A stretch of DNA of 64,000 nucleotides from the NCBI RefSeq assembly GCF_900105255.1, contig NZ_LT629763.1, positions 2,914,001-2,978,000 on the forward strand. Reading direction: 5' to 3'. This DNA comes from Halopseudomonas sabulinigri (GTDB lineage: Bacteria; Pseudomonadota; Gammaproteobacteria; Pseudomonadales; Pseudomonadaceae). How positions within the stretch are numbered: the stretch's first letter is position 1; the number at the start of each line of letters is the position of its first letter. Below the pieces are notes generated by a model. It worked only from the letters and a program-made list of their open reading frames with translations. It searched no databases and was not told where the DNA came from. The position numbers were made by a program, and so were the translations under genes. Below, piece by piece: positions 53,057-54,312 of the stretch.

Positions 53057-53120
53057 CCCTAACGCCGCGCTCTGCGGAAATTTGGGAGCGCCAACGAGTA
53101 AATTTTCCGTAGCAGCGCCT
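53057..53120 (-). other. attC site C, major part, split by the IS110 element
   Basis: The R' core CCCTAAC (53057-53063) is followed by an imperfect palindrome (GCGCTCTGCGGAAATTT against AAATTTTCCGTAGCAGCGC) with unpaired bases, as in folded attC. The missing R'' core (GTTAGCC, 54306-54312) lies on the other side of the IS. Rejoined, the site is about 72 bases. Confidence 0.8.
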
Positions 53121-53123
53121 TGT

Positions 53124-53324
53124 ATGGATAATTTCTGCCGTGTTTGGGTAAATTGAGGCCCACCCCCGACGGCCATCGGGGGCCTTCATGCAGCAGCTCG
53201 GTGTAGCGCCGGCTCCTCTTTTGAGAGACCGATAACAAGTGGGTAGCGCTGCATGACTCTCAAGCGATAACTCGAACAGTCATCGGGGCCTCGAGCCCGT
53301 ATAGCAAGGCAGAGTCAGCTTATT
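53124..53324 (+). ncRNA. Predicted bridge (seeker) RNA of the IS110 element
   Basis: The 5' non-coding end holds two loops in the order known for IS110 bridge RNAs. Target loop: AGCGCC (53205-53210) equals the top strand left of the insertion point; after an imperfect hairpin (53211-53230) comes TAACAAG (53233-53239), complementary to CTTGTTA right of it. Donor loop: ACAGTCA (53276-53282) equals the last seven bases of the element (54296-54302); after a CGGG/CCCG hairpin comes ATAGCAAG (53301-53308), complementary with one extra base to the left-end CTTGTAT. Expression is not shown. Confidence 0.65.
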
Positions 53325-54278
53325 ATGAACACTCCAGAAAACCAAACCCTGATCAACATCGGTGTCGACGTCGGTAAAGCTAACCTCGATATCGCCCTTC
53401 ATCCGTCCGGCCAATCTTTTACCATTCCGAACAGCACCACTCATATCCGAGAGCTTGTGAAGATACTCAAGGGCTACGCCATTGAGCGGATCGTTGTAGA
53501 AGCAACAGGCCGCTACGAACATGCATTGGTTCGAGCCATCAGTCAGGCTGGGCTGCCCATCATTGTGGTCAATCCGATCAGTGTGCGGCGCTATGCCCAA
53601 GCTATCGGTGTGTTGGCAAAAACGGACCGCATCGACGCTCAGGTCATTGCCAAATATGCTGCTACGCTGAAGCCAGAATTCAAGCCCATACCGGATAAAA
53701 CATCTCAAAAAATCAAAGACCTATTGGCGAGGCGCAGCCAGCTCATGGAAATGTCCACCATGGAAAAAAACCGCCTGCAAATACTGCCAAAAACACTTCA
53801 CAGCTCCATCAATAGTCTACTCAAAACGCTCCAGACCCAGATCAAAACCATCACCAAGCAGATCGAGCATGAAGTCGCCAAGGTTGATCATTGGCGAAGT
53901 AAAACAGACATCCTGACCAGCGTGCCAGGCGTTGGCAAAGTCATGGCGTTTACGCTACTGAGCGAGCTTCCTGAGTTAGGCAAGCTTAACCGGCGAGAGA
54001 TCGCAGCCCTGGTTGGCGTGGCACCCATCAATCGCGATAGCGGCAGACTGACGGGCAAGCGTCGGATCCGTGGCGGTCGCCATAGAGTGCGAACAGTGAT
54101 GTTCATGGCGATGATGTCAGCCATCCAATGCAACCCGGTATTCAAGCAGTTCTATGAACGCCTGAAAGCCCAAGGAAAGTTACCAAAAGTCGCCCTCATT
54201 GCCTGCATGCGAAAGATGATCGTGATGCTCAACACCATGGTTAAGAATCAAGAGCCGTGGCGTGAAAAAACAGCCTGA
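53325..54278 (+). CDS. IS110-family transposase (DEDD recombinase)
   Basis: A 317-residue recombinase. The RuvC-like domain shows the DEDD residues Asp15 ([10 protein letters not shown]), Glu59 (VVEATGRYE), Asp101 and Asp104 (KTDRIDAQ). A coiled-coil-like helix (about 125-185) leads to the Tnp domain with [16 protein letters not shown] and the catalytic serine Ser239 in [10 protein letters not shown]. Full length with all key residues, so it appears intact. It lies on the plus strand, opposite to the cassette genes around it. Confidence 0.95.
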
Positions 54279-54302
54279 TTTGGGACGTTGACACCACAGT
54301 CA

Positions 54303-54312
54303 CTTGTTAGCC
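54303..54312 (-). other. R'' end of the split attC site C
   Basis: GTTAGCC (54306-54312) with the preceding CTT completes the attC begun at 53057. The stop codon of the DUF2971 cassette gene (54307-54309) lies inside this core, as is typical of cassettes. Confidence 0.75.

Follow-up and report, generated by a model that had tools for sequence, protein, structure and literature searches.

The window, a stretch of 64,000 nucleotides of the Halopseudomonas sabulinigri chromosome, carries an insertion sequence (IS) of the IS110 group (53121..54304, plus strand) within the attC site of an integron cassette. The element is 1184 bp long, counting one copy of its CT core, and the genome holds five identical copies, all bounded by the same ends. 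Very probably a bridge RNA encoded at its left end guides the transposase to attC, by the mechanism described for bridge RNAs and seekRNAs of related elements (PMC11208160, PMC11208158, PMC11187229). A sequence-only reading of the same DNA had described a guide-RNA element programmed for integron cassettes; covariation of guides and targets, a consensus fold and further copies in attC sites now support this description, and it is from these that we infer the guide function.

The interrupted attC could be delimited to the base. Its left portion (CCCTAACGCC ... AGCGCCT, 53057..53120) ends with the left target and the core CT at 53119-53120. On the other side, a second core CT (54303-54304) is followed from 54305 by the right target TGTTAGCC; together they span 54303..54312 and represent the R''/L'' end of attC, read along the cassette genes. 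Joining 53057-53120 to 54305-54312 yields a 72-base attC (CCCTAACGCC...GCGCCTTGTTAGCC) with self-complementary arms, so the earlier claim that excision of 53121-54304 restores a normal attC of about 72 bases was correct to the exact coordinates. The target thus displays the paired simple sites (YTAAC...GTTR) and the complementary arms of attC, and lies in an array of co-oriented cassette genes, all on the minus strand. The gene adjoining the IS (54307..55206, minus strand) encodes a DUF2971 protein and has its stop codon inside the right target; the gene on the opposite side (52553..53041, minus strand) encodes a cysteine-rich CPCC protein. A strict attC finder detected almost nothing and a loose finder was used to map the arrays. 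It located the intact attC sites of the neighboring cassette (55219..55291) and of the next one (56035..56093), both on the minus strand.

The IS encodes a transposase of 317 amino acids (53325..54278, plus strand), matching DEDD_Tnp_IS110 (1e-22) and Transposase_20 (1e-18), that is, the RuvC-like DEDD domain PF01548 and the transposase domain with a conserved serine PF02371. Its best relatives of solved structure are IS621 (E 4.5e-35) and ISCro4. Alignment to IS621, whose catalytic D, E, D, D and S positions were named in PMC11208158, revealed that all of these positions are retained, which makes D15, E59, D101, D104 and S239 the candidate catalytic residues. The non-coding portions are unequal, with 204 nt to the left of the ATG and 26 nt to the right of the stop codon. 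The DEDD/Ser transposase, the 5' guide region and the restored attC bear out the assignment as an IS110 element within an integron attC, and the long 5' non-coding end, together with the order of the guides described below, supports the IS110 subgroup to which the sequence-only reading had pointed.

Based on an alignment of 34 sequences (A1) with support from paired changes, the predicted bridge RNA extends over 53153..53315 and consists of a 5' stem-loop, a target loop and a donor loop; this RNA and all of its parts lie on the plus strand. The 5' stem-loop (CCCCCGA/TCGGGGG, 53163..53182) shows compensatory change in 6 of its 7 pairs. In the target-binding loop (53188..53254) a stem, ATGCAGC/GCTGCAT, encloses the left target guide (LTG), a hairpin at 53211-53230 and the right target guide (RTG). 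The LTG, GTGTAGCGCC (53201..53210), contains AGCGCC, which also occurs in the left target, at 53205-53210. The RTG, TAACAAG (53233-53239), is followed by a handshake-like TG (the whole at 53233..53241), and these nine bases, UAACAAGUG, complement the product junction CACTTGTTA at 54301-54309 without a mismatch, which fits the handshake pairing described for IS621 (PMC11208158). Downstream, the left donor guide (LDG) ACAGTCA (53276..53282) is identical to the right end of the element at 54296-54302, and the right donor guide (RDG) ATAGCAAG (53301..53308) is a near-complement of CTTGTAT at 53119-53125, with one base more than a perfect complement would have. LTG first, RTG second and then the donor guides is the order of the IS110 group. 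All four segments had been recognized beforehand at these places; their positions were verified, and the covariation between guides and targets presented below exceeds chance.

To assess the fold, the alignment was analyzed with RNAalifold, and the consensus has both-sided changes in 23 of 42 pairs and keeps the LTG and the RTG free of pairing, one on each side of the target loop. A second structure, modeled on that of IS621, paired 94.2% of the cells, with double changes in 17 of 36 pairs and 77 cells; 0 of 500 shuffles were as high, and slid versions paired 28-51%. As this structure was drawn partly from the same sequences, the paired percentage is flattered, and the double changes are the stronger evidence. 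The target loop is clearly present. The donor loop is recognized by its guide matches and by a hairpin that changes from GGGC/GCCC to GGGU/ACCC in Vibrionaceae. Support for the outer stem of this loop is weaker, and the RNAalifold consensus pairs this region differently. The expectation that folding would place the guides in loops was thus borne out for the target guides in the alignment consensus, where they lie in an internal loop, but not in the minimum free energy fold of the single sequence, which pairs part of the RTG. An Rfam search of the guide region returned no match up to E=1. Variability per column of the 34-sequence alignment is highest in the LTG (1.21 bits), and the RTG is among the most conserved blocks (0.26 bits).

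Relatives were collected from other genomes (51), as extra copies in the same genomes, as class-wide hits and from plasmids (Vibrionaceae, Pseudoalteromonas). The left flank and the guides were readable in 50 insertions from about 35 genomes, and the right flank as well in 45. The right guide AACCAG (L008, L009, L010, L013) pairs with right targets that carry a G at the third position, CTGGTTA or CCGGTTA, in four of four cases; were the 45 sites independent, which they are not fully, such a pairing would have a probability of about 7e-6 by chance. AACAAAC (L110, L112, L113) pairs with GTTTGTTA in three of three. All others have AACAAG paired with CTTGTTA, except for L022 (CTTATGTG) and L033 (CTTGTATGG), whose right flanks do not match TTGTTA and look altered. 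Between L009 and its close relative L011, both the guide and the target differ. At L033 the right end is followed by CTTGTATGGTG rather than CTTGTTA, a sequence similar to the left end of the element itself, possibly marking a tandem or circle-derived insertion. The RNA of L030 has no RTG, with CGATAGCGC in place of the expected CGATAACAAG..., and its guide is probably dead. In the host genome, an attC at L062:4975-5052 has TAACCA for TAACAA, the form that a guide with AACCAG would recognize.

The guides also follow the ends of the element. ACAGTCA occurs with the right end CACAGTCA, ACAGTCG with CACAGTCG (L039, L040), ATAGTC with CATAGTC and ATACTC with CATACTC; L006 and L034 are single departures from this agreement. 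It is conceivable that the transposase protein alone recognizes TTGTTA and that the guide-like matches arose by chance or are relics of past insertions, as the right target is nearly constant throughout the clade and some LTG matches are poor. We regard this as quite unlikely, however, because the AACCAG and AACAAAC guides go with altered right targets in seven of seven cases, the contrast of L009 with L011 included, because the LDG, too, varies with the end of the element, and because the RNA helices are maintained through compensatory change.

A bridge RNA as the guide is also favored by the left side, where the signal is statistical. Over nine bases, in a register chosen between two offsets, the LTG matched its own left flank at a mean of 4.70 positions compared to 3.65 after permutation (z=5.6, 0/5000), and allowing a slip of one base, at 5.46 compared to 4.25. 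Within hosts the signal (with slip) is weaker, P being 0.01 in Marinobacter, 0.02 in a mixed marine group and 0.06-0.07 in Halopseudomonas and the Vibrionaceae group, and in Marinobacterium matching is at chance with no within-host signal; hence the global signal partly reflects adaptation at the level of hosts to their attC dialects. The window copy matches its left flank in 7 of 9 bases, better than the four copies identical to it, so its left match is partly luck, and the right match is exact in five of five. With these reservations for the left guide, the suggestion that changes in the guides should track changes in the targets held among the relatives. The left flank of L023, from Marinobacterium halophilum, is nearly the same attC as 53057-53120 of the window and was struck at the same base; the left guide of this element differs from that of the window element, the AGCGCC end being common to both.

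At the right junction, the core reads C (42) or G (3) and then T. At the left junction the base before the T varies (C 38, T 6, G 3, A 3), and the T itself was fixed there by the search pattern (TTGTATG) and is not independent evidence on this side. IS621 likewise requires the core T and tolerates other first bases (PMC11208158).

Four of the five copies in the H. sabulinigri chromosome reside in attC sites, and all five have X-TTGTATGG on the left and CACAGTCA-CTTGTTA on the right. Two lie in the array beside the only full integron integrase of the genome (3583021-3583953); the window copy is located some 0.6 Mb from this array with no integrase nearby; of the remaining two, the copy at 201 kb occupies an attC, and for the copy at 833 kb no clear attC partner is seen. 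A broken integron integrase was considered and rejected, since an intact frame of 321 amino acids spans it and the TAG is its end. The chromosomal integron of this genome (L062:3022-14520) has an apparently intact integrase and two IS copies inside; its cassettes encode immunity-like proteins (Imm33, YezG-like), and genes for DUF3024 and DUF4112 proteins and a nitroreductase then follow. The genome contains 293 TTGTTA(G/T) sites. By eye, about 13 of the TAACG...TTGTTA matches look like intact attC, this pattern being no richer than in a reversed control, and from this hand count a binomial estimate puts the chance of finding four of five copies in attC, given TTGTTA alone, in the order of 1e-4.

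Fold energy separated the joined sites of the relatives poorly from controls (3/41 below the control 5%), partly because the controls came from loci that hold attC sites. Two tests adopted after this result had been seen, with controls taken from positions 1-48000 of the window, gave a clearer separation: a TAACG at a distance of 40-145 nt from the right core was present in 27 of 41 joined sites, compared to 2 of 38 controls, and complementarity between the arms of a site averages 7.37, compared to 5.03 (sd 0.25) when arms are permuted with those of other sites. By this simple test, about a quarter to a third of the targets have no recognizable attC partner. Among them are same-guide copies (L002, L021, L026, L043) at non-attC sites in which TTGTTA is still present. 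L021, L026 and L043, all in Marinobacterium sediminicola, have identical guides and no clear attC partner, and are natural off-attC targets; the left guide of L043 matches in 8 of 9 bases outside attC. Relative to the question whether all copies sit at the same attC position, the answer is divided, in that most are in attC in the same orientation and some copies with the same guides are outside it. As to copies with the same guides in unrelated sequences, which would have spoken against the sequence-only reading, those outside attC proved to retain TTGTTA.

These sites bear on another possibility, that the element recognizes attC as a folded single-stranded hairpin, in the manner of the integron integrase, rather than as linear sequence. 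Most targets are indeed attC sites with paired arms, but identical elements occupy the arm-less TTGTTA sites of L002, L021, L026 and L043, and the guides match a single linear stretch across the core, which leaves little probability for recognition of the fold. Since TTGTTA is retained outside attC, pairing to linear sequence is the likely determinant. The IS is antisense to the flanking gene in 67 of 76 cases (32/37 on the right, 35/39 on the left), and in many cases the stop codon of the cassette gene falls inside the right target. Seen in cassette orientation, both place the IS within the first simple site (R''/L''), immediately inside YTAACAA.

When the ends of the element are joined, as they would be in a circle, a promoter is formed that exists only there: TTGACA (54288..54293, plus strand) becomes the -35 and GATAAT (53127..53132, plus strand) the -10 element, at a spacing of 17. 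This near-consensus promoter has 11 of 12 consensus matches, a score reached in 0 of 2000 random windows, and in relatives the circle promoter scores 8-11/12 (mean 10.3, compared to 7.6 at the inserted left end). A promoter arising at the circle junction was reported for IS621 (PMC11208160, PMC11208158), and the motif found here speaks for a circular intermediate. We propose that the element leaves as a circle whose new junction would serve as the promoter driving both guide and transposase. The left-end bridge RNA would then guide the transposase, one loop reading the target and the other the joined ends of the element. UAACAAG of the RTG would pair with the conserved TAACAA end of attC, and the variable LTG would read the less conserved attC bases adjoining it. 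Insertion at the core NT, where the two halves of the target meet, would place the element antisense to the cassette genes and split the attC. The ends, the restored site, the covariation of guides with targets and with element ends, the helices, the orientation, the clade and the circle promoter motif are properties of the DNA itself; by extension, the RNA would be made, bind the transposase and direct insertion, the circle would form, and the split attC would block cassette excision.

A tree was built from 47 transposases, and in it the elements with TTGTTA-type flanks form one clade (100/100, stem 1.03); a flank of this type is found in 0 of 11 outgroups. Clade members scored as other are L022 and L033, with the altered flanks, and L121 and L122, whose right ends were not read within the tested stretch (L122 is incomplete). 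The tree is midpoint-rooted, which makes a single origin of the clade likely rather than proven. The window element appears to be one member of a coherent, widespread and apparently undescribed lineage in many marine bacteria, in which the right guide stays constant and faces the conserved attC end and the left guide changes fast. We consider it probable that this IS110 lineage, with a Vibrionaceae and a Marinobacter/Pseudomonadaceae branch, specialized on attC once, and that the target was kept while the left guide rapidly followed host-specific attC variants; this would be a second, independent parasitism of attC by guide RNA beside the IS1111-attC elements. On a plasmid of Vibrio maritimus, a pair of IS110 transposase genes is separated by about 1 kb (L121:1-401 and 1501-2493). 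No relative was found in the viral contigs scanned, and the phage matches are distant ones that share about 33% identity or less.

The lineage amounts to a natural reprogramming series for bridge-RNA recombinases: guide and target have changed in pairs across dozens of related enzymes, the right guide is longer than that of IS621, and the left guide is by far the most variable block of the RNA. Integron cassettes are struck by IS110-group elements and their attC sites split, which probably freezes the cassettes in place, and the interplay of IS insertion with cassette capture is open to direct test. In the open-access literature searched, no description was found of an IS110-group element directed at attC. 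Targeting of attC is established for the IS1111 group (Tetu and Holmes 2008; Post and Hall 2009, as cited in PMC11187229 and PMC11089894), a survey of IS110-bearing integrons in Shewanella reported none of these elements in attC (PMC9229058), and an abstract stating that IS110 disrupted attC (PMC11616780) refers to ISPa21, of the IS1111 group. That our element is an IS1111-attC element in other guise, such elements also targeting one attC end via a guide RNA (PMC11187229), is the least probable reading, given a guide region 5' of the gene, a right end of just 26 nt, the IS110 order of an LTG pairing with the bottom strand before an RTG pairing with the top strand, and, with the 25 longest of 68 repeats inspected, no pair of IS1111-type subterminal inverted repeats (7-17 bp) close to the two ends.

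The reading as an IS110-group element with a left-end bridge RNA can be compared with several known systems. The IS1111-attC elements (ISKpn4, ISPst6, ISPa21, ISPa25) share with it the guide RNA and specific insertion into attC (PMC11187229, PMC11616780). They differ in having the guide region downstream of the gene, the reversed guide order and subterminal inverted repeats. Class C-attC group II introns are reverse-transcribed, with an enzyme and a mechanism unrelated to IS110. Like the window element, they are RNA-carrying mobile elements that invade attC, as mentioned in PMC9229058. In architecture the window element resembles IS621, of the IS110 group in E. coli, which has the same domains and catalytic positions, a 5' bridge RNA with 5' stem-loop, target loop and donor loop, a CT core with a constant T and a loose first base, and a circle-junction promoter (PMC11208160, PMC11208158). 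Unlike in IS621, the target here is attC and its right side is the part that stays constant; the RTG match covers about 7 bases, as against 4 in IS621. IS621 itself is directed at REP elements. ISEc21 and ISMch6, also of the IS110 group, have an upstream guide RNA and a natural joint change of guide and target (PMC11187229). In their case the target is another one and there is a single pair, whereas here many pairs occur within one lineage, at attC or attC-like sites.
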